Source: Dermanyssus gallinae
Taxonomy: Eukaryota; Arthropoda; Arachnida; Mesostigmata; Dermanyssidae
DNA length: 64,000 nt
Assembly (NCBI GenBank): GCA_003439945.1
Contig: QVRM01001471.1
Span: forward strand, 280,501-344,500
Direction of reading: 5' to 3'
In this document: one piece after another, positions 28 to 58,814 of the stretch
How the letters are laid out: every line of letters begins with the position of its first letter
Numbering within the stretch: the stretch's first letter is position 1
Made by a program: the position numbers and the translations under genes
Notes under the pieces: generated by a model
Seen by the model: only the letters and a program-made list of their open reading frames with translations
Told to the model about the DNA's origin: nothing
Databases searched by the model: none

Positions 28-297
28 TTAGAAGTGGCCGAGTCGAGGATGGTAGCCACGCTTGCCTGTATGGCCCAGACGGTGAGTTTCGACTTCGTGA
101 GCAAGCGCCATCAGTACGGAGTCACACAAAATAAAGACCATTCCCAGCAGGTTCAAATGACTCTGTCCAGACAAACCTCCAATAACTTGGCATGCGCCGC
201 CTATAAATGTCAAAAAACGGTCAGACAAATCGAACAAGTCGGGCTCGTCGTGAAGCAGCCCAGCGATCCCATATTGGCTTGCGCGTGAGAGATCCAT
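28..297 (-). CDS. Small two-helix membrane protein, member A of a novel family
   Basis: The frame is 89 codons from an ATG at 297-295 to a TAA at 30-28. It starts MDLS, has a polar N-terminus of about 26 residues containing HDEPD (16-20) and FDL (22-24), then a hydrophobic segment at about 27-44 and a second at about 48-66 (NLLGMVFILCD). A basic tail of about 20 residues follows. DEPD-x-F-x-L and LLG match the member at 38430-38654, and the spacing from Arg27 to Gly52 matches the other members within two residues. The frame stays open upstream to 495, so a longer 155-residue start is possible. I prefer 297 because the other members start M-[SDE]-L at the same place. ACAACGAA lies just 5' of this ATG, as it does upstream of the two middle members. 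Function is unknown; an integral membrane location is inferred from hydrophobicity only. Confidence 0.55.
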   Translation of the reverse strand: MDLSRASQYGIAGLLHDEPDLFDLSDRFLTFIGGACQVIGGLSGQSHLNLLGMVFILCDSVLMALAHEVETHRLGHTGKRGYHPRLGHF

Positions 298-944
298 TGC
301 TCTCTGGCCTTTCGTTGTTTTACGCGATAAGCAGCTACGTACGCGTCCACACGGGGGCACGGCCGCGTTCGGTGCTTTAAATGCTATGTAGAATGTATTA
401 CTACTATACAGCGTAGCCCTTAAAAAGCCCTGTCGTTGCGACATTGCGACCATGGCCACTGTGTTCTCTTCGAATACCGCTGGCACCAGTTGCACTTCTA
501 TGTGCTTCTATGTATGCGGACAGAGACGGTGAACTCTAGCCTACACATTATGTTGTTATCAAACGGCTTTCATTCTCGGCGTCATGTTCAATCCGGTTCA
601 ATGGTTTGGGAATAAAAACAAATAACATAATAAACGCCCACCACAATACGTTGTAGTGGTACTCTATGCTTAAGCGACGTCGTCATTGTCGTCTTTATTC
701 ATCGTTTCTCATACCTTACCGGGATCTCCTCGCCCGACTGCCATTGTACCGCCGGTCTACTAAACGCGCTCACACAATATCACTCTTCCCATTCTTCTTC
801 TTGTTCTTCTGTCGCGTCGACCACTTCGAATCGTTTAGGCGCGCTGGTCTCCGTCGAATCCAAAAACCGCTATTTTTTTGCCGTACCGACGCTTGACGGT
901 TCGTTTGCAGTCAATTCTGCTTTCGTGCGTTTTACATTACATTA
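298..944. other. Interval without a recognised gene
   Basis: This is the presumed 5' flank of the minus-strand small gene ending at 28. The reading frame continues upstream to 495 without a stop, so part of it could be coding. Beyond 500 I see no motif, repeat or domain that I can name. Confidence 0.4.
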
Positions 945-1168
945 ACATTATGGGAGGGGTGGATGGTAATGCACCATCTCTTTTTATTGAGACATCTGTG
1001 CTTCCCGTTTTTTTTTCGATCATGGTCGATTTTTAGTCCACTCCGGCATTCACCTTGTTTAAATTGGGAACCATGAAAACCAATTTTGGAGCGGCCGGTC
1101 TGGGTATCGAACCCAGGCCTTCCGAATGCAAGGCAAAGACTTTTGCCACTAAGCCATCTTGCTCGGTT
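945..1168 (-). repeat. tRNA-derived SINE, tail type 1
   Basis: Read on the minus strand it begins CCGAGCAAGATGGCTTAGTG (A-box-like TGGCTTAGTG) and carries a B box (GGTTCGATACC) about 45 bases later. A body mentioning AATTGG and AAATGCCGG-type sequence follows. The 3' tail contains GGGAAGCACAGA and AAAGAGATGGTGCATTA. The same tail is on the copy at 21313-21530, whereas copies at 32.6 and 50.3 kb have a different tail. Family identity is unknown. Confidence 0.8.
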
Positions 1169-1334
1169 TCTGTTCAGTTTGGACAGGCGTCCGCCTGCGT
1201 CCGTGCGATCCGTTATCCGTAGTCAAGCAATGCCGCCCGGGGTGGAGCACGCCTCGCGGGTGGCGCGCTTGCAGCTCAAACTCGTGCTCTATGGTGAAGC
1301 GCTTCCCTTCCGGGTATCGCTTTTGATCTGATAC

Positions 1335-1362
1335 ACATATATATATATATATATATATATAT
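1335..1362. repeat. (TA)n microsatellite
   Basis: Uninterrupted TA dinucleotide run of about 26 bases, directly beside the perfect palindrome at 1366-1397. Confidence 0.95.
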
Positions 1363-1365
1363 CAG

Positions 1366-5901: not shown

Positions 5902-8900
5902 TCAGTTTACTTGTGTGGCGACATTTGCACTGTTAGTGCTGTAAGTTCTCATTGCCCTCGCCATCCGCCACGAAAACATGTTATTTACACGATCTGTCTT
6001 GGCAATTTGTTTCGACGAGATGGTGTTACCGCTTCTAAGATTGTTCAAACGAATGCTAAAATAATTTGACTTATTTGATGAGTTTATAATACGATTGAAC
6101 ATGCGATAATCCGCTCTGGACTGAAGTTCCCGAATAGGGCCTATCACAATAGAATTTCGGGCAACGTTACACCTTAACGAGACACGACGAAGGAATCTCC
6201 TCTGTACACTTTCCATTGCTTCAATGTGTTTATCTAAGTAAGGCCGCCAAACCTCACAGCAATAGAGAAACTTAGGTACAACCAAACTATTATAAAGCCT
6301 CATGTAAAAATTGTAATCATTAATTATGAAACAACGAAATATGGTATTAGATATAAGATTAGCTGATCGGATGACTTGTGTAATATGGGTGCTAAAATCC
6401 AGTTGCGGTGTCACCGCAACCCCTAGGTCCCTAATACAATTTAAAATAGGGATAGCCTCCCCATGTAGCGTGTAGTTATGGGCTTCTTTTATACACAATA
6501 CAGCACATTTTGGCACTGATATAAGCATTTCATTATCCACACACCACTTAGAAACCGCTTCAATCGTACTCTGTAGTACTTGCCTTTCGCTAGCGGTGTT
6601 GGAAGGTCCGTATAGTTTCAAATCATCAGCATAAAGCTTATAAGTTATCGACTCAGGAATAACGTTTCTAAGATCTAAAACAAATGTGCAAAATAAAAGT
6701 GGCCCGAGGCTTGATCCCTGAGGAACACCTGAGGGGCACGTGCCCGACTCACTAAAGCTATTGTTTACGCGAACGCAGAACTCTCTACGGGTAAGATAAC
6801 TAGCAATCCATGATATAGAGCGAGTATCTACATCCAAGTACCTAAGCTTTTGTACAAGTTTTACATGGTTTACTCTATCAAATGCCTTCGAGAAATCAAA
6901 ATATATACAATCAAAGGCCAGCCTATTGTTTATCATAACAGCCCAATCTTGAGTCATTTCGACGAGTTGAGTTGCCGTGGATTTGCCTTTAGTAAAACCA
7001 TGTTGATTCTCATCCAGCAAGCATTTAGATTGAAAAAAATTAAAAATGTGGTCCACTAGCAGTTTTTCAAAGATGATACATGCGATAGATGATTGAGCTA
7101 CAGGTCTGTAATTATCTACATTTGACCTTAGACCCTTCTTATGCACAGGGGTTACGACTGATTGCCGAAAATGTTTTGGCACAATGCCATCCTCATAAGA
7201 CCTACTGAATATCAAGAAAAGGGGTTCAGTTATCGCAGACGCTACATTTTTATAAAATATGGGTGGGATTAAATCAGGAGTAAAGCTGCATTTTGTGGGT
7301 AGTTGTTTGATTTTAGAAAGAATATTATATTCTGATATTTCCAAGTATGGACAACTATCTTTCGAGACCACGTCGTTGGAAACACCTTCGGGAACTGAAC
7401 TCCCTTGGGCAACATAAACCGACGAGAAGAAGTCCTTAAATGCATTTGCTTTAGAAGCGTCGTCTACGAGGACCGTCTGATCTATATTTAAAGCCGCAAT
7501 GTTTTCTTTTCCTTTTAATCGCTTATTTGCATATCTAAAAAACGACTTTGTGTTTTTAAAATCAAGACTGGCTTCTTCCATTATACGAAGTCTTCTAGTC
7601 GCCTTCCTTAACTTTTTTTCATACTGCACATTTGGCTCCTGGTCAATCAACCGTTCTAGATTGGTGACATATTTACGTAAATTTGCATTATTTTTTGACT
7701 TGCCATTTCGTTTAGGTACAAACTCTTCAATTAGTGAATGTATCTGGTATACAAAGCTATCATACATCGAGTCAACGGTATCGCAATTTAAAAACAAGTT
7801 CCTCCAGTTTATACAAGCAAGCCTACAGCGGATTATTTCATAGTCCCCCTTCCAGAAATTATAACCTCCCTCGTCTACCGTAGGATAATTAGCATCAAAT
7901 AAAATAGAAAACGAAATGGCATTGTGGTCGGATGGAATTGGCGACTGAAATACTCGTATATCTTCAATGATGGACGGGTCTGAGGTTAAAACTAAATCAA
8001 TAATAGAGCCCAGATTGTCGTCGTCATCGTCGGAGATACCTAAGATTCTTTCATCAGTGACAATACAACTATTAGTAACACTAGTAGCTAATTGGCTAAC
8101 ACTACTAAGGTTACCATTACTATCAATGTGACTAGTTGCATGACTGTCATTACTATATCTATTACCATTACTATTGGTGTGACTGGATAGTTTACTGAAA
8201 TTATTATTTATGTTAGTGTCATTACATTGAGTAGCGAAGTGATTCTTGGCATTACCTACAGTGGCGAATGTGTTATCTATTTCATCATTGGAACTGGCCT
8301 GCGCAGCCTCAGCACCATGGCAATACAGTCGAGGGCGAGTGACCTCGTCTATTTGTTGGTGTAAGCCGTTAGTGATGCAGGCATTAACAAAGGTGGACTC
8401 CATGGTTTGCGAATCTAAAAGCGTAATATCCTTCCAGTGTATTTTTGGAAGGTTGAAATCTCCAGAAATTAAAATTGGACTGGTTGTATCACAAATTAAG
8501 TCAAATGAATCACATACAGTTTTCATGCGTTTCTTGCGTTCAGCAAGGGTGCCGGCGTTTGTTGCATAATAACAGGCAACCCTGATGGAACTATGTTTGG
8601 AATATACGTCTAACGCGACAGCTTCGATGCCACTCTCTGGTCTTAGTTCACAAACTTTCATCGTGTTTTGAATTAATATACAAACCCCCCCTCCTCGGGA
8701 GCCACGATCACATCGAAATACTGAGTACCTATCATCACACGACAGTTCTCTATCGGTTACGTGCTTGCCACCTACACCTAACCAGGTTTCGGTTATAAAC
8801 ACTATATTAATATCATTTAAGGCAGTATATGAACTGAGCAATTGTGTACGATCATCTTTACCTATCGAACGTGCATTAAAATATAAACATTTTATCGCGT

Positions 8901-8928
8901 TTTTATCCGCAGGGGTAAGTGATGCCAA
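5902..8928 (-). CDS. LINE ORF2: endonuclease-reverse transcriptase
   Basis: The open frame runs uninterrupted for about 1000 codons. It starts with an apurinic-type endonuclease domain (FNARSIG near the start, FITETWLG, GDFNLPKIHW, then SDHNAISF at about 335). The reverse transcriptase follows, with DFSKAFDRV, GVPQGSSLGP and the catalytic YADD. ORF2 nicks the target and copies the element RNA at the nick. There is no ATG before the endonuclease domain. The frame is also open further upstream for about 200 nt and overlaps the end of ORF1 by about 160 nt in the -1 frame, so the true start is uncertain. The uninterrupted frame suggests fairly recent activity. Confidence 0.9.
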   Translation of the reverse strand: MASLTPADKNAIKCLYFNARSIGKDDRTQLLSSYTALNDINIVFITETWLGVGGKHVTDRELSCDDRYSVFRCDRGSRGGGVCILIQNTMKVCELRPESGIEAVALDVYSKHSSIRVACYYATNAGTLAERKKRMKTVCDSFDLICDTTSPILISGDFNLPKIHWKDITLLDSQTMESTFVNACITNGLHQQIDEVTRPRLYCHGAEAAQASSNDEIDNTFATVGNAKNHFATQCNDTNINNNFSKLSSHTNSNGNRYSNDSHATSHIDSNGNLSSVSQLATSVTNSCIVTDERILGISDDDDDNLGSIIDLVLTSDPSIIEDIRVFQSPIPSDHNAISFSILFDANYPTVDEGGYNFWKGDYEIIRCRLACINWRNLFLNCDTVDSMYDSFVYQIHSLIEEFVPKRNGKSKNNANLRKYVTNLERLIDQEPNVQYEKKLRKATRRLRIMEEASLDFKNTKSFFRYANKRLKGKENIAALNIDQTVLVDDASKANAFKDFFSSVYVAQGSSVPEGVSNDVVSKDSCPYLEISEYNILSKIKQLPTKCSFTPDLIPPIFYKNVASAITEPLFLIFSRSYEDGIVPKHFRQSVVTPVHKKGLRSNVDNYRPVAQSSIACIIFEKLLVDHIFNFFQSKCLLDENQHGFTKGKSTATQLVEMTQDWAVMINNRLAFDCIYFDFSKAFDRVNHVKLVQKLRYLDVDTRSISWIASYLTRREFCVRVNNSFSESGTCPSGVPQGSSLGPLLFCTFVLDLRNVIPESITYKLYADDLKLYGPSNTASERQVLQSTIEAVSKWCVDNEMLISVPKCAVLCIKEAHNYTLHGEAIPILNCIRDLGVAVTPQLDFSTHITQVIRSANLISNTIFRCFIINDYNFYMRLYNSLVVPKFLYCCEVWRPYLDKHIEAMESVQRRFLRRVSLRCNVARNSIVIGPIRELQSRADYRMFNRIINSSNKSNYFSIRLNNLRSGNTISSKQIAKTDRVNNMFSWRMARAMRTYSTNSANVATQVN

Positions 8929-8972
8929 CTGTTCGGCGGAGACTTTGGGGTGGTAATTTAATCTAGATTGTT

Positions 8973-9992
8973 TTAAAACAGCAGGTAGTCTGGGAAGAGG
9001 CTGGGAAGTGGAGGTACTGGTGGCAGAGGTGGAGGCGGTATGTGGAGCCGGGGGGGCCAGATGGCTGGGAGAACCGGCGGTGGAAGAAGGGGTGGAGGAC
9101 GGTGTTGAAAAGGAGCGATCCCGGTTTGGTAGTTAAAGTTGTTTATACTACTGCCGGCAACAGAGGAGGAAAATGCCCGGGAGGAATGGTCAGCTGGTTG
9201 ACGCCGAGTTGCATTGAACTTAATGTTAATTCCCGCAATATTAGGTTTCACTCCCAGGAAACTGGCGGCTTCACGGGCGATAGGCCTGGCCGCCTGCCTT
9301 GCTCCACGGCGGTTGAAATGAACTCCATCGGTGTCCATAGACCGGGCACAGCGCTGGATATACGAGAAGTCACGATAAAGCACGGCCGAATCCTTAAATT
9401 TAGCCCACATTTTACCGTTAACAACTTCGCAATCCGCGCGGCGGTCTTTGCCTGGACCGCCTGTTACTACCGGGATAGAACAGACGGTCAGCCTGACGTT
9501 GTTGGCTTCGCAGAACTTCACCAGGTCATTCAGCTGATGCTCCATCCGCCTCCACACCTCGACAATATCCTCACTGGCTGGGCTCTTCAAGATATCATTC
9601 AACCCGGCGTGCAGCATGACGAGCTGGTCCGTCGGCTGTGTGTTATATATGGCAATATGGCGACGCACGTTTGCGATAACCTTGCTTAACGTGGCGCCGC
9701 CTTGCCCCGAGATAATACAGCGCACGTCGCCACCCATCATGTCAAGCACGTTGGTCGCAAGACGGGAGATGTTGGAGTCACCGGCCAGAAGAACGGACTT
9801 AACGGGTGATGAGTGGAAGGACGACTCTCGGGTAGGCTGAGAGTCGACTGCAGTGCCATCGATGCCAGCCTGCACGAAGATGTCTGTTTGTGTGCAAGCG
9901 GTGACATTGCATATAGCAGTTGGGATTCCGTTGTTTGTGGATAAAACTGCTGTTTTACTATTTTCAATCAGCTGCTGTTTTAATATTTTCAA
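8973..9992 (-). CDS. LINE ORF1: SGNH-type esterase protein, 5' partial
   Basis: About 339 codons are open. The SGNH hydrolase signature is intact: GDSN (catalytic Ser block I), GQGG, HAGLND and DGVHFN (Asp-His block V). A Pro-rich C-terminal tail follows. Esterase ORF1 proteins are known in CR1-like LINEs, where they are thought to act in the ribonucleoprotein particle. No ATG is present at the start and a TGA lies directly upstream, so the N-terminal part (often a PHD finger or coiled coil in this group) is missing. The last ~160 nt also encode the Ser/Thr-rich beginning of the ORF2 frame. Confidence 0.85.
   Translation of the reverse strand: MKILKQQLIENSKTAVLSTNNGIPTAICNVTACTQTDIFVQAGIDGTAVDSQPTRESSFHSSPVKSVLLAGDSNISRLATNVLDMMGGDVRCIISGQGGATLSKVIANVRRHIAIYNTQPTDQLVMLHAGLNDILKSPASEDIVEVWRRMEHQLNDLVKFCEANNVRLTVCSIPVVTGGPGKDRRADCEVVNGKMWAKFKDSAVLYRDFSYIQRCARSMDTDGVHFNRRGARQAARPIAREAASFLGVKPNIAGINIKFNATRRQPADHSSRAFSSSVAGSSINNFNYQTGIAPFQHRPPPLLPPPVLPAIWPPRLHIPPPPLPPVPPLPSLFPDYLLF

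Positions 9993-11756: not shown

Positions 11757-11842
<86 letters not shown>
11757..11842. repeat. (TA)n microsatellite, left arm of a transposon-loaded array
   Basis: A pure TA run of about 85 bases, interrupted by the mariner that starts at 11843. The right arm resumes at 13135. Confidence 0.95.
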
Positions 11843-11845
<3 letters not shown>

Positions 11846-13134
11846 GTAGTTCAATAAGTTCTTAGAATGAAAACCAAGAATTTTTCAAATCATGTTTTTA
11901 AATTTATCTTATTCGATATACTTCCCGAGATGCTCAATACACTTTTCCCACCAAGATTTCAGAGCTTTTATACATCTTAAGTAGAATTCCGCGTCTTTAG
12001 ACTGAAAATAGGCATTGACAGCAGCCTTAGCCTCTTCATTGCTGGAAAAAACGCTTTCCACTGAGACTATTATTCAAATGTTCGAAGAGGAAATAATCAG
12101 AGGGGGCCAGGTCTGGAGAATAGGAAGGTTGTTCAATAAATTCGAACCTCAGTTGGGCCAGTTTTGCCGATGCTTGCCGGGACTTGTGTGCAGGAGCATT
12201 GTCCTGGTGAAACAGGACAATCTTCTTCTGCAAAGCGGGCCGTTTCACGATGAGTTCTTGCTTCAGGCAGCCCAACAGTCTTGCATAATATTCTCCTGTG
12301 ATCGTTTTACCGCTCTCAAGGTAGTCGACCAGCATTATTCCACGTTGGTCTTAAAAAACTGTAGCCATCACCTTTCCGGTCAATGCCGTTGTCCGCACCC
12401 TCTTCGGAGGTCCTTCATCAGGTGCACACCATTGGCAAGATGCTTCTTGGGTCTCGGGAGTGTAGTGATGGACCCAGCTTTCATCGACGATCATGAATCT
12501 GCGCCAAAAATCCGACGGATTGTTCGACATCTTGGCCAAATTTCGCCGTGAAGCGAAAACAGGCGCGTTTTTTTTGGCCTTGGTTAAGCAAATGCGGCAG
12601 CCATTTTTCTCTGAGCTCTTTCATCTTCAAGTTTTCGTATAGGATACAATGCACACTACCTAAACTAATTCCTAATGCCTCCGCTATCTCCTTAATGTTC
12701 ATTCGCTTATCTGTGCCAACGATGTTTCGCACTTTCTCTATGTTTTCCTCATCAGTTGCTGTTTTTTGGCCTCCTGGACGTAGTTCATTCTCGGTGCTCC
12801 TGCGACCTCTTTTTAACACGTTAATCCAGTTGGAAACAGTGGCAAAACATGGCGCAGAGTCACCGTACGTCTCGTCCAACCCAATTTTTACTTGGGTCGC
12901 ATTCCAACCTTTGAAATAAAAATGCTTGATAACCACTCGAAACTCTTTTTTCTTCATTTTTAAAAATCACGCCGATACGTTGCACGGGAAAAGCTATCAA
13001 ACGAAATCGCAACGGCCAATCACCATAATATTTTGAGTGCTAGCAGTCGAAAAGTTGCAGTTCCTAATAGCGGTGGAAGCGCGCCAAAATTCGAATTCTA
13101 AAAAGCTCATTCTAAGAACTTATTGAACTACCTG
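11843..13134 (-). mobile_element. Mariner copy 1, full length
   Basis: The ends are inverted repeats reading CAGGTAGTTCAATAAGTTCT inward from both sides, and the element sits at TA dinucleotides (11841-11842 and 13135-13136). Its 1292-bp length fits a mariner. It landed inside a (TA)n array, as expected of a TA-targeting transposon. The same family is present at 30.5-33.0 kb and 61.4-62.7 kb. Confidence 0.93.
12036..12957 (-). pseudogene. Mariner transposase, mildly disrupted
   Basis: The reading begins MKKKEFRVV at 12957, with an N-terminal helix-turn-helix region (ATVSNWIN, then ISLGSVHCIL). The catalytic core follows: IVDESW, HQDNAPAH and SPDLAPSDYF, giving the D-D34D arrangement of mariner transposases. 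One frameshift lies at about 12540, a stop at 12351, and a further frameshift at about 12050 in an A-run. All three catalytic aspartates are still encoded, so the copy died recently. Confidence 0.9.
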
Positions 13135-13160
13135 TATATATATATATATATATACATATG

Positions 13161-15441: not shown

Positions 15442-18400
15442 TTTTTTTTTTTTTTTTTTTAGAGGTAACTGGTAAAATGCGTTATGCACACCGGGCGACG
15501 TTGTTAAAGCCTCGGTAGTGTGGGACTCGCACCCACTAAAATCCAGTCGTCCTCTTTGCCCCTTGACGGGGGGTGGCCGCAGTACTGTCTTCTCGAGATT
15601 ACTTCGCCTGGCCACTCTTCTTGCCATTTAGGCTGCTCGGCTTTGTGCGGCGGTTATTTTCGCCTCAGAGATTCCTTGTGCGAATCTTCTTACTAGAATC
15701 CAGGATTTGTGATCTTTGAGGAGCGCCTCTACAAGGGCCTGGCATGTCAGGGGGTTCTGCAGTCCTAGGTTCCGGGACAATAGCTCTCGCTCAGTGTCGA
15801 AGAAGGAGCACCGCTCATAGCAGTGCCTAACATCATCAGGCTCCCCCGAGTTGCACATGCGGCATACAGGGGAGTCAGTTTTACCGATGCGGTGTAGGTA
15901 CTGCTGAAAACAGGCACCATGGCCTGTTAACAGATACGCGAGTGGGTAGGTAAGCGAGCCGTGTTTAAGGCTGTACCATTTTTTAAGATCCGGAAGTATT
16001 GATCTTGTCCAATATCCAGGATGGCCCGGCTGGATTGCTTCCCATTGCTGGCTCCATTCGCTTAGTGTGTCGGTTCTGCTGACTAGTGTGCCCTCCGTCA
16101 GAACGTTGGTTACAGGGCTTCTTGATGCCAATTCTTTTACTCTCAAGTCCCAGGGAATTTGTCTGGAGAGTACCTGTACGGCTGCTGTGGAGGCCGTGCG
16201 ACTTGCTCGTGTTAGGTTAAGCGCCATAGATCTTTGGGTCTTGTTGAGAAGGCGACGTGTTGTAGCTCTTGTAGTAGTGCGCTTCCATAAGGGTGCGGCG
16301 TATAGCATGATGCTGTCTATTACTGATGCTAAGAGTCGGCGCCGAGAGTCGCTTGCCCCTCTGGTCCGTGGGAGGATTTTCCGTAACTCTGCTGAGGCTT
16401 TGGCTGCTTTTTTAGCTGCATAGCGCACATGAGGTGTTCCTGTGAGAGCTCTATCCAGGATCACGCCCAGGTACTTGACCACGGGCGTGGGTGTTATTGG
16501 ATGGCCTTCCAGGTGTAAATTTAGGTTGCGTGGAGGACGCTTCAGTCCGTTTAGAAGGATTGCTTCCGTTTTTTGTGAAGCCAGTTCGAGGCCAAGCGTG
16601 CGGAGGTGTTGTCGGATATCCGCCAAGGCTCCGTTGGCTGTACCTTCGAGCAAATCCTCGTCACTGGCGGTAACGATCAGTGCCAGATCGTCTGCGTAGG
16701 CGATAGAAATAACTCCCGGGGGATGCGGCAGTCTTAGTACTCCATCATAGGTTATGTTCCACAGGGTTGGTCCCAGTACAGATCCTTGGGGAACCCCGGC
16801 AGTGACGGCGTAGTCCACTCCATCGTATGTAGATGCTCGGTCCTTTAGATACGACGCTAGGATACGTTGTAGGTAGGGAGACACGCCTTTATTTCCAAGT
16901 GCTTGGTTTAAGGCGTCCCACGAGAGCGTATTAAACGCGTTTTTGACATCAATAAGGACGGCAAGGCAGTGCGCCCGGTTTGCGATAGGTGAATTTCTTT
17001 GTGTTTCAGCTATGTTTAGAACTTTGCTGATAGCCGAGTGTGTGGAGTGCCCGGCGCGGAAACCATGCTGGTTTTCTGACAGCGCCTCCTTGTCTTCTAA
17101 TTCTGTAACTAGTCGCCCGTTGATAATATGCTCAGCTGCCTTGGATAGGCAGGAGAGCATGCTTATAGGGCGGTATGCTGAGGGGTCTCCTTGTGGCTTC
17201 CCGGGTTTCGGGATAAGGGTAAGGCGTGCCGTTTTCCAAGGCTTTGGGTATTCTCCGCTGGTGAGAATTGTGTCCATCATGCGTTTGAATACCTTTGGAT
17301 GGTTCTTTAGGAGTACGCGTACTGCTTGAGGGGGGACAGCATCTGGGCCCGGCGCTTTCCCTGGTCGTATGCGTTCAGCCACTATTCTGATCTCTTGAAT
17401 TGAGATTGGCTCGAAGGAAAGATCTGAGGTTTCTTCAAAGACTACCGACTCCGGCAATGGTCTTCGTGTAAAGAGCGCATTTACAATCGGTCGCGCCACT
17501 TCTACAGGTAAAGGCGGCTGTGCGTGGCGCATTTTTTTTCGCACAATCATGTATCCTTTGCCCCAAGGGTTTCCCTCGACCTCCTCACCCAGAGAGATCC
17601 AGTGGTCTTTTTTACTAACCTTAATGGCTTTATGTAAGGCTCTTCGTGCTTCTTTGTACTTTTCCCATAGGTAGAAGAGTTCTCGTCGGTGCCTTGCTCT
17701 GCGGCGCGTGCATACTCGCCGTATGCGGTGGCAGGCCCTTCGCTTTTCGGCAATCCGATTATTCCACCAGTAGCACGGTGGTCGATTGGCTATCTTAGGG
17801 TGTGGGCGGGAGCTGGACTCTCGGCAGGCTTCCTCTAGTAGTGTAGAGATTTCTGCTGCCGAGTATTCAGTGAGGTTATGTACTTTTCCTCTTAATGCTT
17901 TCTGCAGGCGGGTATAATTTAGCCTGGGAAAACGTTGCGGTTTTGTAGGACGATGAAGCTGGGAAGAAGTTAGATTGACAGAGAAGGTTACGTAGAGATG
18001 GTCGGATAGAGTTTCTGCTTCCTCGTGAATCCTCCAGTCGGTTACTCGGTGCGATAGTCTCTCTGATGCAAATGTCAGGTCTAATGTTGATTTGTGCCTG
18101 CCATTATCAAAGGTGTATCCCTGGGTGTTCATGAGTTGTAGATCCGCCCGGGTTGCCCATTCTAGCAGGATCTCTCCCTTCCTTGATGAGGACCTGCTTC
18201 CCCACAGACTGTGGGCCGCATTGAAGTCCCCTCTCACAATCGCCTTTCGGTGACCGCGAGCGCTCATGCTGAGGTCCAGTTCTTCAAGGAAGTCCTCGTA
18301 TTCCTGTAGGGTGGAGTTCGGAGAGATATAGACTGAGTAGATCGCGAAGTCGTAAGTGGTAATAAAGGAGAAGTGGGTCCCCTGTCCCACTGACGTGGGC

Positions 18401-18457
18401 GAGTATCTTGTAGGAAATACCTTGATCGAAGCGGATTTGTTACCAGCGTGGGGCCCG
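15442..18457 (-). mobile_element. R1-clade LINE copy 2, truncated within the endonuclease
   Basis: On the minus strand it begins at (TA)n at 18457 inside the endonuclease domain and carries an uninterrupted ORF2. A 3' UTR (15461-15627) with GGGTGCGAGTCCCACACTAC follows, then a run of about 19 A (seen as T at 15442-15460) and (TA)n again. Both flanks are therefore (TA)n. Confidence 0.9.
15628..18456 (-). CDS. R1-clade LINE ORF2: endonuclease (partial) and reverse transcriptase
   Basis: More than 940 codons are open without a break. The partial endonuclease domain has [11 protein letters not shown] and the SDHLYV motif. The reverse transcriptase has [13 protein letters not shown] (A), [14 protein letters not shown] (B) and [10 protein letters not shown] (C, catalytic aspartates). 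The C-terminus has [15 protein letters not shown], a zinc-knuckle-like motif. The enzyme would copy element RNA into nicked DNA. The N-terminus is lost at the (TA)n junction, where the frame only appears to continue as Tyr/Ile repeats. The undamaged frame implies a young insertion. Confidence 0.9.
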
Positions 18458-18459
18458 TA

Positions 18460-18544
<85 letters not shown>
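18458..18544. repeat. (TA)n microsatellite
   Basis: A TA run of about 85 bases at the 5' junction of the R1-clade copy and the end of the 6.8-kb TA-rich island. Confidence 0.95.
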
Positions 18545-18551
<7 letters not shown>

Positions 18552-18941
18552 GAAAGCTACCAGGTTACACAAAGAAAGATTCATACCTTATAATTACATA
18601 TCGCAGAAGGATTAAACCTGCGATTCATTTAGACAAAATCAGAGCAATAGGCTTTCACCACCAGTTGCCGTTCGGCCAACGACTACTGCAGAAGAATTTT
18701 ACACTTTGAGCGTCCGATCGCAGGAGAAAACATGTACCTGCTCAATGAAGAGCGTTCCATATGCGCCTTGGGAGATACTTAAGGGCGATGATGACAAACA
18801 ACATCAACGCGTGAGCAAGTGCTGGTGGTGCAAGAAGCTCTTTCGCACGCACACGTACTTAAGTATTTACAGCAGCGGCTCTTACCAGCACAATCGTTTG
18901 AATAAACAACGAAACGATCGTTCTTTGCGCGTATAGGCTCG

Positions 18942-19169
18942 ATGTCACTGGAATGGTTTTGGTCACCCGGTGACGAAATCGAAGATGGGCTCTCCTGTTG
19001 GGGGCGCGATACACCGGATGCATTCGACTTGTTTAGAATCCTTATTGCTGCCACCGGTACACTCTACAGCAGCCAAGGAATACTTGGTGGGTTTTCTGGG
19101 CTCAAAACGACAGGCTATATAATTCTTTTAACGTCAGCTCTCATGTGTCTCTTCGAGATCGACGACTAA
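18942..19169 (+). CDS. Small two-helix membrane protein, member B of a novel family
   Basis: 75 codons, ATG to TAA. The acidic, Trp-rich N-terminus (W5, W7, GDE 10-12) is followed by WGRD (20-23), PDAF (25-28) and LFR (30-32). A hydrophobic segment covers about 30-48, then G46, G49, K55 and a second hydrophobic segment at about 58-71, with an acidic EIDD end. It aligns without gaps to the 74-residue protein at 38430-38654, with 34 identities by eye. Many codon differences between them are silent (TCA/TCG, GGG/GGT), which suggests selection on the protein. The start is fixed by the shared MSL and by homologous 5' non-coding sequence. No cleavable signal peptide is evident. Function is unknown. 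It could be an exon of a longer gene, but the conserved flanks argue for a complete single-exon frame. Confidence 0.7.
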   Translation: MSLEWFWSPGDEIEDGLSCWGRDTPDAFDLFRILIAATGTLYSSQGILGGFSGLKTTGYIILLTSALMCLFEIDD

Positions 19170-19620
19170 AATGCCCCTGGCTATGCAGTGCCTGGCTGGC
19201 AGTCACCACTGTTGTTGTGCGGGCAAAGGATACGTGAGCATACCAAGTCAGTTGAAGCATGTTATATTGCCCTACATAGCTTTGCAGTGACAAACTGTAA
19301 GTTACTTAACTGTTTGTCCGTTTGATGCCTGCAGCAAACATGCTGGCACTTAATACCTCAAAGGGGTAGAATTGTCACTGTGAAAACACATGCATCTATG
19401 GACGCGCTGCTCAGAGTGGATCGGCGGACGAAGCCTTTTAATAAAAGGTAAACTATAGTTACAGCTGTTGACTGCGACCGGCGTCGGATATCTTAAAATG
19501 GCTATCGAATAGCTCCGCTACTGAATGGACCTGGCTTAGATGCGGCAAAGCAATTCACTTGTCTGTCGTCCTCAAGCTAAATGCCTGCTTTGCTATAAAT
19601 AAAACAAATTTAAAAGTTTG
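19170..19620 (+). promoter_or_regulatory. Probable 3' UTR and polyadenylation signal of member B
   Basis: AATAAA lies at 19598-19603. It is preceded by AAGCTAAATGCCTGCTTTG, which is nearly identical to sequence in the 3' flank of the 38.4-kb paralogue at the same relative position. The intervening 400 bases are also alignable to the paralogue in patches. Confidence 0.5.
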
Positions 19621-19800
19621 CATTCTAGAACGTACATTTAGTAAAATGTTTATCATTATTATACAGAGTGTAGATTTCGTTAGTAAAACTTGAAACATTA
19701 TTTTAAATGTAAGCGCTGCAACTAATTGCATCTCATTCGTCTGCCCAGGAGTGCTTTCTAAATGTTCATGTGCACATGGCTCAAAGACTTACGATATATA

Positions 19801-20747
19801 CATAGTGTGTTCAAAACGTATCGCGACTTTTGTGTTTTTTCAAAAATTATTCATTTATTCATGAATATCTATTTTGTCCCCTTCAAAGTAATCCCCATGA
19901 GATATTATACACTTGTGCCAACGGTTTTTCCAATCTTCGAAGCACTTCAAAAAACCATTTTTTTAACCTTGTTCAGCTCCTCCTTCGATGCCGTCTTTAT
20001 CTCGTCAAGCGTAGCGTAACGTCGTCCTTTCATGGGCCTCTTCAGTTTAGGGAACAAGAAAAAGTCACAGGGGGCCAGATCTGGGGAATACGGTGGCTGT
20101 GGCATCATTAGTGTGTTGTTTTTGGCCAAAAACTCGCGCACAAGCAACGATGTGTGAGCAGGGGCGTTATCGTGGTGCAAAAGCCAATTTTTGTTCTTCC
20201 ACAAATCCGGGCGTTTCTGGCGGATTGCTTCGCGCAAATTGCGCATAACTTGCAGGTAATATTCCTTATTGACCGTTCTACCCTGTGGCAAGAACTCATG
20301 ATGCACCACGCCCCTGCAATCGTTAATCATTAATTTTTTCGTCTGTTGTTGAAGTGCTCGGGCGTCCGGCACGCTCTTCGTCGTTCACATCTTCTCGGCC
20401 TTCTGAGAACATTTTGTACCACCGATAAACGTTGCTTCGGTCCAAGGTAGCTTCTCCGTATGCCACAGTCAACATTCGGAATGCATCCGCGCACTTAATT
20501 TCGTTTTTCACAAAAAATTTGATACAGGTTCTTTGATCCATTTTTTGGAATAGGTAAAAATCGAAGACGATCCAAAACACGTGCAAGCAAAGCAGCTGTC
20601 AACAATTAAGTGAACATTCAAAATGGCCGAGCTTGTCGGCATAAGTGAGAGACATGAGTACCAACATAACGCCACAAAAAATCGAAATTCGAATATACGT
20701 AACCCCATGAAAATTCAAAAGTCGCGATACGTTTTGAACACACCTCG
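19801..20747 (-). mobile_element. Mariner of a second family, internally deleted
   Basis: The inverted ends read GTGTGTTCAAAACGTATCGC inward (the outermost four bases differ between the two ends), and TA flanks the element on both sides. At about 947 bp it is shorter than a full mariner. The terminal repeats are well preserved, so it could have been moved by a transposase supplied elsewhere. Confidence 0.88.
19947..20541 (-). pseudogene. Second-family mariner transposase with a large internal gap
   Basis: The N-terminal frame starts MDQRTCIKFF at 20541 and runs to about 20330, including an HTH region (SNVYRWYKMF) and GRPSTSTTDEK. The frame then jumps to 20341-19947 with GVVHHEFLPQGRTVN, HHDNAPAHTS and SPDLAPCDFF. 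The second and third catalytic Asp are present. The region that should hold the first one (normally in a [VT]-x-DESW motif) is absent, by roughly 100 residues. Confidence 0.85.
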
Positions 20748-21310: not shown

Positions 21311-21312
21311 AA

Positions 21313-38205: not shown

Positions 38206-38317
38206 GAAATTATATTGTCAAATATCCAACGCTATCGAAAGCTACACAGCTCCGAAAACAAAACTTGTGAAAAAAACTGTGTGCTGGTACAGGCAGATAG
38301 ACAGTTCGTGAGTGAAA

Positions 38318-38389
38318 ATGGGATTTAATTATTTGCTGCAGCAGCTGCCCTTACTAGCGCAATCCTTGTTAGAGTTACTTGTTATTTGA
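38318..38389 (+). CDS. Possible 23-codon upstream ORF
   Basis: ATG to TGA, encoding MGFNYLLQQLPLLAQSLLEL and three more residues, a Leu-rich peptide, 40 bases before the ATG of the small protein gene. The homologous flank at 18.86 kb is alignable but has no equivalent frame, so this may be chance or a member-specific regulatory uORF. Confidence 0.25.
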   Translation: MGFNYLLQQLPLLAQSLLELLVI

Positions 38390-38429
38390 ATTGACAACGA
38401 AGCCATTGTTCGATCTACGTTCGGGCTCG

Positions 38430-38654: not shown

Positions 38655-39230
38655 GCCGATTCTGACGCGTGTCACTCACTGGCAGCCTCAAGTTCCAAGC
38701 CCTCCCAATGTTGACATTGGGAGGAGAGCGGTGAGAGAAGCGGTGCGGGCGTATCAACAACCTTCGTCGAAGTGCCTGTACATTGCCATTCGTCCAACCT
38801 TGGCGAATCGTGAGCTATTTCCCTGTTTATCTGTTTGATACCGACGGGTGCAGCCGTAGACATGACTGGCGCCGAATACTTCAACGGGGTGCCCTTATCG
38901 CTGTGCATAAACACAAATGTATGCACGCGCTGTTTCGGAATGGTGGGATCGGTCGACAGAAAGATCACTGAAAAACTCAGCTGTAACCACTGTTACAGCT
39001 GTTAACCAACCGCATTCAAAGACGCGTGTTCAGCATTTCCCGACAAATACTGACAACGTTAGTTTCTCTTGGAGTTAAGAATACTTAAGCGCTATCGAGT
39101 TCTGCTGCTGAATGGATCTGCCTGCCTCACAGTAGTGTGGGAACGCGATGAGTTCGTCTGCCGTTAAGTAAGCTCACGCGGCAACAAGCTAAATGCTTGC
39201 TTTGATATAGATAAAGCAGTTTGAAAGACA
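38655..39230 (+). promoter_or_regulatory. Probable 3' UTR of member C
   Basis: Alignable in patches to the 3' flank of the 18.9-kb paralogue. It includes CAAGCTAAATGCTTGCTTTG at about 39186-39205, followed by ATATAGATAAAG where the paralogue has the polyadenylation signal. It also contains the hairpin at 38701-38724. Confidence 0.45.
38701..38724. repeat. 11-bp-arm hairpin shortly after the stop of member C
   Basis: CCTCCCAATGT, a two-base loop TG, then ACATTGGGAGG, 47 bases after the stop codon. A stable RNA stem-loop would form in the 3' UTR. Confidence 0.7.
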
Positions 39231-40873: not shown

Positions 40874-41165
40874 TGTAGGATAGCAGTGTCCGTTACGCAG
40901 CGCGGGCATAGACAGCGTCGGTTGGCCGGGAATGCCGAAGCAAGCGAAATACATGGCGCCAAATAGAAGATGCCGCCACCGTACTAGCGAAGACGCGTGA
41001 AGTCACACAAAATGCGCGTGACATCTGTGAGTATATAAGGAGGCATGAGAATAAGCGAGTCAGTAGTCGTTGGTGCGAGCCAGGCAGAGGACGTGTGGTG
41101 TTTGAGCGAAAGACTTGCGAACTTGTAACGGTTGCCGTCCGGTCGTTAGGGTGGTGGATACTACA
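40874..41165 (+). repeat. Solo LTR related to the miniature LTR element
   Basis: Begins TGTAGGATAGCAG and ends ATACTACA. It contains GAGTATATAAGGAGGCATGA and ACGTGTGGTG, matching the minus-strand LTRs at 31.0-32.1 kb. The flanking pentamers ATTAT and CTTAT differ at one base, consistent with an old target duplication. There is no internal region. Confidence 0.85.
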
Positions 41166-47172: not shown

Positions 47173-47301
47173 TCAATCGTGATAGTGGAGGAAATACTGC
47201 AATCTATAAGCAACATTTAGTAGAATAGGAACAGCAATACCTACTCCTGTTACCAAAATAGGCAGAGCAGAGTAGACGATTCTCCTAGGATAACCAACCA
47301 T
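47173..47301 (-). CDS. Possible 42-codon single-helix microprotein
   Basis: ATG at 47301, TGA at 47173. Encodes MVGYPRRIVYSALPILVTG and then VGIAVPILLNVAYRLQYFL, a basic N-terminus and one long hydrophobic helix. Its 5' side runs into (TA)n within 30 bases, so it cannot be followed upstream. I do not recognise it and cannot show that it is translated. It differs from the two-helix family. Confidence 0.25.
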   Translation of the reverse strand: MVGYPRRIVYSALPILVTGVGIAVPILLNVAYRLQYFLHYHD

Positions 47302-47323
47302 CGTTGCGTTTGTGTTTATTTCC

Positions 47324-47327
<4 letters not shown>

Positions 47328-47386
<59 letters not shown>
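47328..47386. repeat. (TA)n microsatellite
   Basis: Pure TA run of about 56 bases. Confidence 0.95.
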
Positions 47387-47387
<1 letters not shown>

Positions 47388-47389
47388 GT

Positions 47390-48190
47390 GTATATTTCTT
47401 ACCATTGCGATGTGTAAACGCTTTCATTGAAAGGGTCATTTCGTTTCAGCCCATGGCGTCTCTAATATAATTCGGTGCTCCCTTTCTCTACGAAGTGCCA
47501 GTGGCATCATCATCATCACTAATCTTATCATCGTCATATACCTCAGAAACATTGCCTCGCGTCGGGCCAGTCATCGCTTCTAATATCCTCCGTACGGTAT
47601 CTGGGGCTTCGGCTTCATTATACTGGGACGACCTTCACTGTTCACATCGTCGAGACAGTGCGCACAGCCCTAATCTCTCTTCATGAAGAGTTAGGCGACT
47701 TCCGGCGACTGTCCGTTCCGACGGCAGTTACTGACAGTCAAAACTACCTCAAGATTGTTCTAACGCCGATGTATGGTCTTGGCAGAGTATGGGGACACCT
47801 CACTCGGGCAAACGTTGGTTTGCTTGAAAGGTGTTTCACAACGTACATGATACAAGATCCTTGACTGTCAATGTGGGCAAGAAGCCGCTTTGTGAACCTA
47901 ATGGCTGGCTGTGCACCGGTTGTTGGGATAATTCGATTGATGTTAAAGACGCCGCGTACAGTACCATTCGAGAGCTTTATCTCAGAATGGAAAAATTAAG
48001 TTAAACAAAACCGACGATAGGTTGGAGACCTGGATATTTTCAGTGCTTCTCACCTCTGGTCTAGTCTTGCATGTGACAATCGGCACGTCTTTACCAGATA
48101 CATAGTTCGTGGCTATCATCACCTGGTCTGTTCGAATACGAGCTTCTATAGGGAGTACACGGAGTGCATCTATCGACTGTGCTCTCAGTC
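47390..48190. other. Interval without a recognised gene
   Basis: Contains ATCATCATCATCA at 47506-47519 and an overlapping pair of short plus-strand frames (47495-47864). No domain seen. Confidence 0.35.
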
Positions 48191-50189: not shown

Positions 50190-50545
50190 AGAAGTTTCAT
50201 GCGTCTGCCAGCCTGGCCCTTGCGAAGAGATTATTGCACTGCCTCTTTTTTGTTTTCGTAAGGCTCCGTGCACGGTTTTTTTTTTCATGTCATGGCTGAT
50301 TTTTAATTCACTCCGGCATTTACCTTGTCCAAATTGGAACATATGCAAACCAATTTCAGAATGGCCGGTTTGGGTCTCGAACCCAGGCCTCCCGAATGCA
50401 AGGCAAAGGCTTTGCCACTAAGCCAATTTGCTTGGTTAATAACATGCCACGAGCAGCTGACTGTATAATTGTATAATCTGTATAGTTGTCTAGATTATAT
50501 GCAATACTCAATATGAGTGAAATAAATATGATGATGATGATGATT
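50190..50545 (+). repeat. Retroposon 3' end with a (GAT)n tail, copy 2, SINE-split
   Basis: Matches 48200-48360, but is interrupted between CTGCCTC and AATAACATGCC by the SINE at 50245-50436. It ends AATAAATATGATGATGATGA. Confidence 0.75.
50245..50436 (-). repeat. tRNA-derived SINE, tail type 2
   Basis: Minus strand: an AGCAAATTGGCTTAGTGGCA start, B box GGTTCGAGACC, body AAATGCCGGAGTGAATTAAA and tail ACCGTGCACGGAGCCTTACG. Inserted in the (GAT)n-tailed retroposon. Confidence 0.85.
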
Positions 50546-50960: not shown

Positions 50961-51084
50961 ATTGATTAAGGGGACGCAATTTAAGGGTATCTAGATAAAG
51001 CACACTTAGATAGGTATTTCTGAGTTCTTGCGAATGTAGATGTCTGATGAGCTTATTCGCCATACCCCAAAGTTGTGTAGCACG

Positions 51085-51135
51085 AAGCCAAATGCTTGCT
51101 TTATTCTTAAGACAAACCAATTTGAAGTACATATT
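51085..51135 (+). other. Relic resembling the 3' UTR block of the small-gene family
   Basis: AAGCCAAATGCTTGCTTTAT followed by GACAAACCAATTTGAAG closely matches the block in the 3' flank of the 38.4-kb gene (39187-39230). The sequence about 45 bases upstream (GATGAGCTTATTCGCC) also resembles that flank. The expected coding region would lie where a LINE fragment and SINE now sit, and I do not find it. Confidence 0.4.
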
Positions 51136-55560: not shown

Positions 55561-55573
55561 ACCGGGCTATTAT

Positions 55574-55647
55574 CCCCCCCCCCCACCCCTCAGTAGTTTG
55601 TAGTGATGCTAACAGCACTTCCCTGCTCGGGGGGGGGGGGGGGGGGA
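55574..55647. repeat. Poly(C) and poly(G) runs in the LINE 3' UTR
   Basis: A run of about 10 C at 55575-55584 and a run of about 17 G at 55630-55646. The G-run could form a G-quadruplex or reflect polymerase slippage. Confidence 0.85.
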
Positions 55648-55755
55648 AGGAGGACATGGCTGGTTTTTAGTGGGTTGGAGCCCCACACTACTGGCCCACA
55701 GTGGTGACCGTGTGTGCGTTCCGCATTTCCCATTTAGTCGTCTTAAAAAAAGGCT

Positions 55756-58547
55756 GCTTTGAACTCATTGCTGCAATCAACAATCTTCTCAGCCGATGAG
55801 ACCCACGCTGGTGGATATCGTGTATAGTTGCTGCAGACCGCACTGCATCCGGCATGACGTCGCTGCTTGCCACGCCCTCTGCCGGTGTAAGTGGCTGCAG
55901 ACGTCATTGCGCCAATGTTAGTCGTCACATGCGCTTCTAGGAGATTTGCCGATTGCAGCAGCAGCAACAAGCTGGTTAGAAGGGATCAATCATAACTGGT
56001 GGGGCCATTATTACTATAAAGCACCTGCAAACGTGTGCACCTTTACCAGGTGGGGGTCCAGTTTATGGACCAGCCATATCTGGAGGGGTTCCCGGACCAA
56101 GGCCGCATTGCCCCGTTGCACACATGAAATCGCCCGCTCGCCTATCTCCGCTTGCTAGACTTAGACGCTTTCCGACCTTCAGTAGCAAACTGAAAGTAAA
56201 CGGGCCAGGGTCCGCCAAGGGCCTCGAAGGCAAGTCGGTAAAACCCGTACGGGTACCCGATGTTCTGGTACTTTCTAAGCCTGCCTCGACGATAGCTGAA
56301 GCATGACCGGCCTGGGCCGCGCCAGCACTGACCCTTGAAGGGTCTAGTGAGTCCGTAACTGTCGGGTCCTAAACCAGCATGCGACCGCTCTCTCGGGTCT
56401 TTCATTACTGGAGATGCCGTAACTGATCTCTATAGGCCGGTAAACACTAAACCGACAGTACTAGAACGTATACAAAACAAACTGTCACGCAAGTAAGCCA
56501 AACTCATCAATCGTTACGACACGACAAAGGCGAACATTTTACACGGCAATTTATTTTTGTTCAATCACTGGTGCAATTAATGAACGCGTTTGTGTTCCTG
56601 CCTCGTTTCGGCATTGCTGCACGGCCCCAGTGTACACCTTTGATGCCATCACTGTCACTAGAAAGACAGTGCCGACAGTCATACCAACAGTCAGTTTGGC
56701 AAAGTTTGGCACAGACACCAGAGGGCAGCGAAAGACGTTATCATCATCATTGGCAGCACACGACGTCGGTATCGCGTGCTTGCGAAATGACTGTTGTCAG
56801 ATCGCTATGTCGTGCTATAGACGACAGGAGAAAACCAATCAGTTATTACCGTCGTAGGCTAATTCGTCAAAACGCGACGTTCTATCCGGTGTTTGTTGCA
56901 GAAGTGGAAAACTGTCTCGCCAAGTTTTCGTTCGACGCTCAGATCGTCCGCGAAGTTAGTCAAAGGAAAACGACGTTGACGTTCTTAATAACAGACAGAA
57001 GTTAGGTGAAGATTGGTTGGAAGACGGGTTTGTTCCGAATACAGGCATCGATCGATGTACGCCACTGCAGTGACGACTGCGTCGGCGTCGTAACACAGAT
57101 ACATAAACATTCGTAGAGATAGGCAAGAAAAAGTAGGCTTGCTGTGGTCCTAGGCTAGTGGACGCAAAGGCGCATGGACGTCATTGTGCAGGTCTTGTTG
57201 GCCACCCAACCGGGCCGGATCGGTTAGCCAATTTAGTTACCGTCTCTGTGCTCGAGTTGTGTTGTTATAACCATCGTCTGCAGATTTCGTTATGGCGTTA
57301 AGAAAAAGAAAAAGAGGAAACGCTTTTATCATATGTCCGTACAGCTATAGTTGAGGTGTAAAAAGTACACGTAAGTGTCTACGAACCATTCACAATGTCT
57401 TACGAACTATTGTCTTACTCTAGGCATAGGGTAAAACACAACTTAAGTTATCATTGTTTCGATCGCGTGCTGCTTCTGGCTGAAATCGAGCAATGAGCGT
57501 CATCTTTAGGCAAACATTGCAAGTGTTTGTTAATTTGCATCACTGGGTTTCTTTGCAAAGCTTGCCTCAGTTGCAAAGCTTGCCTCAGCGGGATCCTGGA
57601 CTCTTATGTCCTGGTCTGGGCTGTCGGGGAGAGTGTATTGTTTTCTAGAGGTTCAACGAATAATTAACTGCTTAGATTTGCCCGAGTTATCTTTTGTATA
57701 TTTAAACATTCTTTAAAACTGCTGCTAATACACATTTTAAATACTTTTACATACGAGAACGGTTTCGTAAATAAACCTTAATTTGAAATTGATAATGAAA
57801 AATTGAAAACTGACAGGACAAAACATCCGAATGTTTGCGCATTCTTTACAATTACGGACCTAGTTAACGGAATGCTAGCGTGAAAGCAGTCTAGTTCCAA
57901 GGGTTATAAAACGACATTTTTTGTTTGCACAAATTATGCACATGGCACATATGGGTTATCCAACTAATAATAATGCTTATTATTAGTGTTGCCTCTCTAT
58001 CTTTCGAAACGACGTAATAATGCCTTTTAGCAACAAAAAAAATCAGTGAGCAGTACTTAAGTGAATACTCACGCGTCGTAAGCAGCAGTTGGCGCTTCAT
58101 TTTCAAAAGATAAATTTTTAAAACACGGTGCACTACCTGTCAAGATTTAGGCCGTTTTTACGATGTCAAGATTTAGCCACACCTCTGTGAGCATGCAAGC
58201 GATCGAACACCGTTTAAAAAATTCCGGTAATAATGGGAGGAGGGTAACTAAAGATACGGGGTCGATCGACTACAAAGCAGATTAAAGGTGAGAATTGGTC
58301 TCTCTAGTACACAGACTCTCTAATACACCTAATTGATAGCGATGTACGTGCATACAATAATGGGCAGCAAAATGCATACGGCGGACTCTTACAGCAGTTC
58401 ATTTACGAATTCACACACAGACATATAAAAACGCCCGCTCACACCTAAATGTAGATGCCACAGTGGTGCAGCAAACTCTCTGAGGACGACTTTATGCTCA
58501 CTTTGTGCAGCAAGAGATGTGGCCCGACGAAAAGGAGAACGTCGCAT
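55756..58547. other. Interval without a recognised gene
   Basis: A 144-codon plus-strand frame at 56571-57005 shows no domain. A tandem pair of TTGCAAAGCTTGCCTCAG is at 57553-57588. AT-rich from 57600. It includes the 3' flank of the minus-strand small gene at 58548, but I do not find the 3' UTR block seen in the other members. Confidence 0.35.
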
Positions 58548-58814
58548 TTACAAGATGCGAGGGTTGAAACGGTAGCCATCTCGCAGGCCTCGGGCGGTCT
58601 GTGCACAGTGCGCACTGAGTGCAACCATGATGAACATGATGGACATACTGAACATCTTGAAGACATTCAACTTTTCGAAGTGTCCCAACATCATTAAGAC
58701 GTTAGCTCCGTAAAATACTGCAAGTTCAGTCCATGGAACCTGGTACGGTCCGGCTGGTTCGACTCCTGGCCCATACGAAACGCGGAGACGGTCGATCGGG
58801 GGAGACAGCTCCAT
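58548..58814 (-). CDS. Small two-helix membrane protein, member D of a novel family
   Basis: 88 codons, ATG at 58814-58812 to TAA at 58550-58548. It starts MELS, with a Gly/Pro-rich polar stretch to residue 27. A first hydrophobic segment covers about 30-44 (ELAVFYGANVLMMLG), then FEKLNVFK, and a second segment about 54-68 (MFSMSIMFIMVALSA). A basic 20-residue tail ends GYRFNPRIL. From Glu30 to Ser56 it aligns without gaps to the 18.9- and 38.4-kb members, including the Gly at 44 and Lys at 53. Its tail resembles that of the 28-297 member (GYHPRLGHF). WGRD is absent. Third codon positions are G/C-rich compared with the AT-rich flank, supporting a real coding sequence. Confidence 0.5.
   Translation of the reverse strand: MELSPPIDRLRVSYGPGVEPAGPYQVPWTELAVFYGANVLMMLGHFEKLNVFKMFSMSIMFIMVALSAHCAQTARGLRDGYRFNPRIL

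Follow-up and report, generated by a model that had tools for sequence, protein, structure and literature searches.

An old pair of paralogues in Dermanyssus gallinae that may encode a small two-helix membrane protein

In a window of 64,000 nucleotides of Dermanyssus gallinae DNA (the whole stretch that we analyzed), the small open reading frames near 18.9 kb and 38.4 kb are true paralogues, which an old duplication derived from a single small gene. We consider it reasonably probable that both loci are copies of a protein-coding gene whose product is predicted to be a two-helix hairpin membrane protein. A first-pass annotation had proposed that four frames of similar plan share a common origin. 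The coordinates, frames, and motifs that it gave are correct for all four, but the frames are not of equal quality: the 18.9- and 38.4-kb pair is established, the frame at 28–297 is a probable relative, and the frame near 58.5 kb has no support as a member. Our best reading is a small lineage-restricted family of membrane microproteins, with two or three members in the window.

Duplication of some 1 kb around the coding frame

Paralogue A (P0002, 75 amino acids; 18942–19169, forward strand) and paralogue B (P0003, 74 amino acids; 38430–38654, forward strand) are each a single open frame from ATG to TAA. As the first-pass annotation had noticed, their proteins align without gaps and both contain WGRD-x-PDAF and LFR-x-L. 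The alignment has 34 identical and 51 positive residues out of 72 (E = 5e-25), and none of 1000 shuffles that keep the hydrophobic pattern reached its local score.

The similarity is not limited to the coding sequences. Unit A (18614–19615, forward strand) includes the 5' flank, the coding sequence, and the 3' flank, and it corresponds to unit B (37980–39227, forward strand); these limits are from a MAFFT alignment, and the pieces of homology along the units are from BLASTN (the main piece has E = 3e-43). Over the main pieces, the units are 62–73% identical. The upstream, coding, and downstream parts each gave scores that none of 300 dinucleotide shuffles reached. Because the proteins align without gaps and both the coding sequences and the flanks are homologous, we conclude that the two loci are paralogous. 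The best-kept part of the unit alignment is the coding core: codons 1–39 of A and the 45 nt before them (18897–19058, forward strand) are 73% identical to 38385–38546 of B (forward strand). A second conserved block lies at the 3' end, where 19573–19614 (forward strand) is 83% identical to 39185–39226 (forward strand). This block contains AATAAA in unit A, which is likely a polyadenylation signal; unit B has GATAAA instead.

Conservative changes with dN/dS near 1

The first-pass annotation had set dN/dS near 1 beforehand as one of the signs of chance frames or dead duplicates. The ratio is indeed near 1 (1.05 by counting; 1.34 by likelihood, p = 0.40 against 1), and the codon positions show no excess of third-position changes (28, 22, and 21 differences of 72). 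We therefore considered that both loci might be dead or non-coding duplicates, whether gene copies in decay or a non-coding transcript that was duplicated, with a frame that is open by chance. This would also fit with the extent of the homology, as the flanks beyond the leader align at 57–64% identity and the best-conserved stretch takes in the 45 nt before the ATG. However, the conservative substitutions in the coding frame far exceed the neutral expectation. The 51 positives of 72 compare to neutral means of 38.7 and 39.8, and were matched just once in one set of 2000 simulations and never in the other; when the changed positions were fixed, neither of two sets of 500 simulations reached them. 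The BLOSUM sum is 187 in the coding frame versus 82–131 in the five other frames, all of which are interrupted by stops in both copies. (Identical residues are no more numerous than expected under neutrality: their number was reached in 240/2000 and 296/2000 simulations.) Also, neither copy has a stop or a frameshift. Both copies stayed free of stops in 5.5–6.0% of neutral runs, or in 1.3–1.8% if the ATG had to be kept as well. The MAFFT alignment of the coding sequences has one in-frame gap of 3 nt, near the C-terminus; by a hand calculation, 5.05 indel events are expected, and the chance of one or none is about 0.04. As for a non-coding transcript, Rfam gave no match in the window at gathering scores and none for 18550–19700, which covers unit A, at E = 0.1. 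Overall, dead or non-coding duplicates seem unlikely. Because the changes are strongly conservative and stops and frameshifts are absent, we read the pair, from its sequence, as a fast-evolving protein that keeps its chemistry. If the pair is expressed, then it is a clear example of a small gene that would be lost to filtering by dN/dS even though its substitutions preserve the chemistry of the protein. Genes like these are easy to overlook in annotation.

We also considered that the unit might not be a host gene but a low-copy interspersed repeat or a mobile element with a small frame inside it. LINE reverse transcriptases and mariner-type transposases abound in the window, and the 3' end of the unit has a weak third match at 51046–51126 (E = 0.0048). 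(Among the 120 of 561 matches listed for the LINE search, no tick appears, and the 11 with a named organism are all insects.) But a profile built from both units, which necessarily matches those two, found no further full copy in the window, and the two are more diverged (62–73% identity) than the mariner-like copies are (88–95%). Furthermore, we saw no terminal repeats when we checked the alignment by eye. On these observations within the window, a mobile element seems improbable.

Predicted structure and the proposed role of its parts

The AlphaFold2 model of paralogue B is a helical hairpin with helices at residues 27–49 and 52–73. Block-mean pLDDT is 90–95 across residues 31–70, while confidence in the whole model is moderate (mean pLDDT of 76.7; 55.5–76.7 across five models). 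The model of the 28–297 frame has the same hairpin plan, but the alignment for that run included the pair. The membrane location that the first-pass annotation suggested is thus a prediction. A search of PDB folds with the model of the 38.4-kb frame found nothing better than E = 4.3. Like SemiSWEET transporters, which have three membrane helices, the 38.4-kb frame is predicted to be a small helical membrane protein. The Foldseek matches to SemiSWEETs are weak (E of 5.5 or worse; TM-scores to the query of 0.47–0.56), and we rejected them as relatives on those scores.

A unit of about 1 kb was duplicated, carrying the coding frame, the leader, and the 3' end. The predicted product starts with a polar arm, about 26 residues long, that precedes two hydrophobic helices (in B, of 23 and 22 residues), and it would sit in a membrane as a hairpin. 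The conserved WGRD-x-PDAF-x-LFR, which leads from the arm into helix 1, may be the working surface; it might dock a partner or aid entry into the membrane. Helix 2 may vary freely provided that it remains hydrophobic. The 28–297 frame would be an older member that retains only D-x-PD-x-F-x-L, and we would set the 58.5-kb frame apart as unrelated.

A bolder idea is that selection on a family of hairpins keeps the physicochemical plan (the arm, the two helices, and the D-x-PD-x-F-x-L hinge) while the residues themselves may change, and that positive selection diversifies helix 2 as if in an arms race with a partner. Omega in helix 2 is 2.2 with a nominal p of 0.04, but this two-part test was post hoc, with the partition picked after seeing the data, and Fisher's test of the contrast between the two parts gave p = 0.094. 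We view this idea as speculative and doubtful.

A probable third member at 28–297

The frame at 28–297 (reverse strand; P0001, 89 amino acids) has an uncertain start, because no stop interrupts it upstream as far as 507. It does keep DEPD-x-F-x-L, as the first-pass annotation had reported. The profile of the pair finds it with E = 0.012, and a single-sequence search links it to the 18.9-kb frame with E = 0.0087; neither score was reached in any of 60 simulated windows. Against the 38.4-kb frame alone it is at chance level (E = 0.44; 15 of 60 simulated windows). Its local scores against the 18.9- and 38.4-kb frames were reached by 2 and 6 of 1000 shuffles, respectively, that preserve the hydrophobic pattern. 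At the DNA level, its similarity to the pair is at the level of shuffles. Judging from these protein comparisons, it is probably a distant relative of the pair. An 11-base sequence, AAACAACGAAA, is common to the regions upstream of the 28–297 and 18.9-kb frames, and is not significant (186 of 300 shuffles).

Among PDB chains, designed SAKe proteins matched the 28–297 frame with a whole-chain E of 1.5e-5. We take this match to be, most likely, a short likeness that is summed over repeats, because no stretch passes on its own and the best one spans just 20–22 residues (residues 30–51 of the frame).

The 58.5-kb frame

The fourth frame (58548–58814, reverse strand; P0004, 88 amino acids) is present, and has no detectable relation to the pair. 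As the first-pass annotation noted, it has a basic tail like that of the 28–297 frame (GY-RFN-PR versus GY-H-PR). The distance from the Arg/Glu of helix 1 to the Gly/Ser of helix 2 had been given as 26–27 positions in all four frames; by hand count it is 26, 26, 25, and 26. Two hydrophobic segments are found in 17 of the 111 ATG frames of 60–120 amino acids in the window, which is more than in 20 simulated windows (mean 7.6, range 3–14). Three frames in the window (the 18.9-, 38.4-, and 58.5-kb frames) combine the two-segment plan with this spacing, compared to an average of 1.05 in the simulated windows, so the plan of the 58.5-kb frame is about what chance would yield.

That all four frames form one ancient cluster, as was first proposed, is very improbable: the 28–297 frame might act as a bridge, as its global score with the 58.5-kb frame was reached by just 6 of 1000 class-preserving shuffles (50 of 1000 for the local score), their tails are alike, and the frames lie near 0.2, 19, 38.5, and 58.7 kb, but the 58.5-kb frame has no BLASTP match to the 38.4-kb frame, 918 and 960 of 1000 shuffles equal its local scores with the 18.9- and 38.4-kb frames, it ranks 32nd of the 1327 frames reported (1635 searched) with a three-member profile, and neither it nor the 28–297 frame is among the other's matches listed. 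Twelve DNA comparisons, of these two frames with the pair and with one another, all stayed at the level of shuffles (61–285 of 300 reached the score). Further members within the window were not found above chance.

Relatives elsewhere and similar genes

For the libraries that we searched (Pfam-A, a protein database, and PDB chains), the claim that the proteins match no known family stands. Pfam-A has no family for any of the four proteins at E up to 10. PDB chains gave no match to the profile of the pair at E up to 10, and the best match to the 58.5-kb frame has an E of only 0.71. In a database of 5.77 billion proteins (including insect proteins), no candidate shared three words with the 38.4-kb frame alone, and an alignment of all four gave 84 candidates, none with E of 10 or better; these searches require exact words of 5 residues, so distant relatives may escape. 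We also scanned genome contigs for two short peptide patterns, which would reveal close relatives only: 31 matches in prokaryotes and 8 in viruses were found, and none were confirmed. Within those limits, nothing points to an origin in bacteria or viruses. In the literature, three peptide words from the motif occur in no papers. We infer that the family either is confined to an under-sampled lineage or changes too quickly for sequence searches to trace. Pending transcripts and relatives, it counts as another orphan family of small genes.

Membrane microproteins from small ORFs are a general class (reviewed in PMC11475943). The proteins described here resemble them in being under 100 residues long and in their predicted hydrophobic helices, which occur in some members of the class. 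No sequence relation to any named protein turned up in the libraries searched. Mosquitoes have testis-expressed orphan genes, AAms among them (PMC2713267), that are lineage-restricted, possibly fast-evolving, and without known domains. For some AAms orthologues, two transmembrane segments were predicted by TopPred, while another analysis is reported to have identified no such segments. By description, the family resembles AAms in its lineage restriction, its possible fast evolution, its lack of known domains, and its two predicted membrane segments. Lineage-restricted genes of this kind are ordinary, and this one is chiefly notable for rapid change in sequence with its character kept.

Two paralogous frames in a duplicated unit

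All four frames that the first-pass annotation proposed as one family of two-helix proteins lie where it placed them. Those at 18942-19169 (+) and 38430-38654 (+), here copies A and B, encode 75 and 74 amino acids and align without gaps, with 34 of 72 residues identical and 51 of 72 positive (BLASTP). The upstream, coding, and downstream DNA of the two copies each outscore 300 of 300 shuffles. By BLASTN (a MAFFT alignment was also made), pieces of homology span about 18608-19614 versus 37974-39226. The main piece (18897-19472) has 62% identity (E = 3e-43); the best-conserved core, 18897-19058 versus 38385-38546, is 73% identical and comprises a 45 nt leader and the first 39 codons. The final 42 bp are 83% identical (BLASTN) and contain AATAAA in copy A and GATAAA in copy B. 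Homology thus covers the coding sequence, the flanks, and the 3' block, and the frames are paralogues within a duplicated unit (18614-19615 and 37980-39227) that takes in more than the frame itself. Identity climbs from 45% (18794-18853) to 73% (18854-18913), where CAG is present in both copies, and a terminal exon may begin here. The conserved 3' end of the unit (AAGC-x-AAATGCTTGCTTT) also has a weak match (E = 0.0048) at 51046-51126 (+); no related frame was seen by eye upstream of it.

Conservative change at dN/dS near 1

The first-pass annotation proposed dN/dS as a test and counted a value near 1 among the results that would speak against a functional pair; this is the value we found. Nei-Gojobori counting gives dN = 0.437 and dS = 0.417 (ratio 1.05), with 28, 22, and 21 differences at the three codon positions (72 each), and likelihood puts omega at 1.34, with no significant departure from 1 (p = 0.40). 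When the frame is divided at codon 42, omega is 0.93 for the first part (versus 1, p = 0.85) and 2.18 for the second (versus 1, p = 0.044), with p = 0.008 for the split, which was picked after the data had been seen (Fisher's test, p = 0.094).

Since dN/dS is blind to the nature of the replacing residues, we used simulation to examine how conservative the changes are. In neutral simulations that matched the real number of nucleotide differences (71 of 216) and disallowed stops, about 39 positions scored positive. The real pair has 51, a count attained in 1 of 2000 runs that started from copy A and in none of 2000 that started from copy B. With the changed nucleotide positions fixed and the bases redrawn, 51 positives were attained in 0 of 500 runs from each copy. 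The BLOSUM sum of 187 was attained in 3 of 2000 neutral simulations from either copy, and, when the positions were fixed, in 10 and 6 of 500 runs. The other five reading frames all contain stops and have sums of 82-131. The number of identical residues is ordinary under neutrality (attained in 240 and 296 of 2000 runs). Both copies stayed free of stops in 5.5-6.0% of neutral runs, and the real frame is open in both. Because positives exceed the neutral expectation and the frame is open, while identities are not above neutral, we conclude that there is probably selection on the protein chemistry of the pair, and little on residue identity. Two caveats apply: one of the two copies stood in for the ancestor, and the pair had been chosen because its frames look alike. 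Conservative change at a dN/dS near 1 is the sole unusual feature of the family.

Other proposed members

When a profile of the pair was searched against the window's 1635 stop-to-stop frames, the only further frame near significance was the one at 28-297 (-), of 89 amino acids (E = 0.012; next frame, 2.1). It matches copy A with E = 0.0087 and copy B with only 0.44. None of 60 simulated windows attained its profile score or its score against copy A, and 15 of 60 attained its score against copy B. It keeps D-x-PD-x-F-x-L and three glycines in equivalent columns. DNA comparison with the pair showed no similarity, the 3' flank being left out of this comparison as the window stops 27 bases past the stop codon. 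By its protein sequence, this frame is a probable distant relative. Its residues 30-51 show some similarity to designed SAKe repeat proteins (E = 1.5e-5 for the whole chain); no stretch is significant individually, and this is probably a short likeness added up across repeats.

The frame at 58548-58814 (-), of 88 amino acids, has no BLASTP match to copy B, its scores with the pair are equalled by shuffles, and it ranks 32nd of 1327 reported frames (1635 searched) against a three-member profile. Its score with the 28-297 frame is slightly raised (attained by 50 of 1000 shuffles locally and 6 of 1000 globally, among 18 shuffle counts made), and a window search with it did not return the 28-297 frame among the matches listed. 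The common two-helix plan is no help to its membership, because such frames appear 1.05 times per simulated window (range 0-3, 20 windows); the real window has three, the pair and one other. Frames with two hydrophobic segments at any spacing are in excess (17 of 111, versus a simulated mean of 7.6 and a highest of 14), in part from low-complexity sequence, to judge by translations at 47173-47439, 1276-1491, and 37020-37358. The four-member proposal thus holds in part: we judge that there are two paralogues, one probable distant relative, and one unsupported frame.

Predicted structure and relatives

AlphaFold2 models copy B (two sequences in the alignment) with helices at 27-49 and 52-73; block-mean pLDDT is 90-95 over residues 31-70, the arm is of low confidence, and the overall mean is 76.7. 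The 28-297 frame, with the pair in its alignment, is modelled with helices at 19-43 and 46-76 (mean 68.4). The pair's product is thus predicted to be a membrane hairpin with a polar arm. Arm and hinge (WGRD-x-PDAF-x-LFR) could be a contact surface, since they are the most conserved part of the protein, and helix 2 may be a hydrophobic anchor, free to drift. A Foldseek search of the PDB with the copy B model gave no match below E = 4.3.

The claim that these proteins match no known family is borne out in the libraries searched: we found no match in Pfam, among PDB sequences (searched with the pair), in the protein database, or in prokaryote and viral contigs. The absence from the protein database carries some weight because it contains insect entries (an R1-like LINE frame from the window gave 561 relatives, and of the 120 listed, the 11 with an organism name are all insects), although small genes left unannotated in an under-sampled arthropod would escape this search, as would relatives with no exact words in common. 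In our judgement the family is probably one of lineage-restricted small proteins, with a predicted membrane location. It is comparable in kind to orphan genes reported from mosquito testes (PMC2713267).

Mobile elements and repeats

The R1-like LINE frame (15628-18480, -) is long, has endonuclease and reverse transcriptase, and is 46% identical to its top-listed match, an unnamed protein. Copy A, on the opposite strand, has its start codon about 460 bp from this frame. A LINE-like element (5902-9992, -) has an SGNH/GDSL-like frame (8973-9992; under Pfam's curated cut-off), then endonuclease and reverse transcriptase (within 5902-9132). Three mariner-like copies (11840-13137; 30502-31038 plus 32124-33003; 61418-62703) are 88-95% identical, and a further mariner-type transposase fragment lies at 19947-20384. 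The middle copy is interrupted by about 1.1 kb bounded by direct repeats (31039-31336 and 31836-32124, 91% identical). This is perhaps an LTR-type insertion, because it has terminal direct repeats and a further copy of them stands alone at 40874-41165. A short dispersed repeat, possibly a SINE, has at least four copies (967-1169; 21308-21514; 32577-32764; 50253-50437), whose matches are 137-206 bp long and 80-90% identical.
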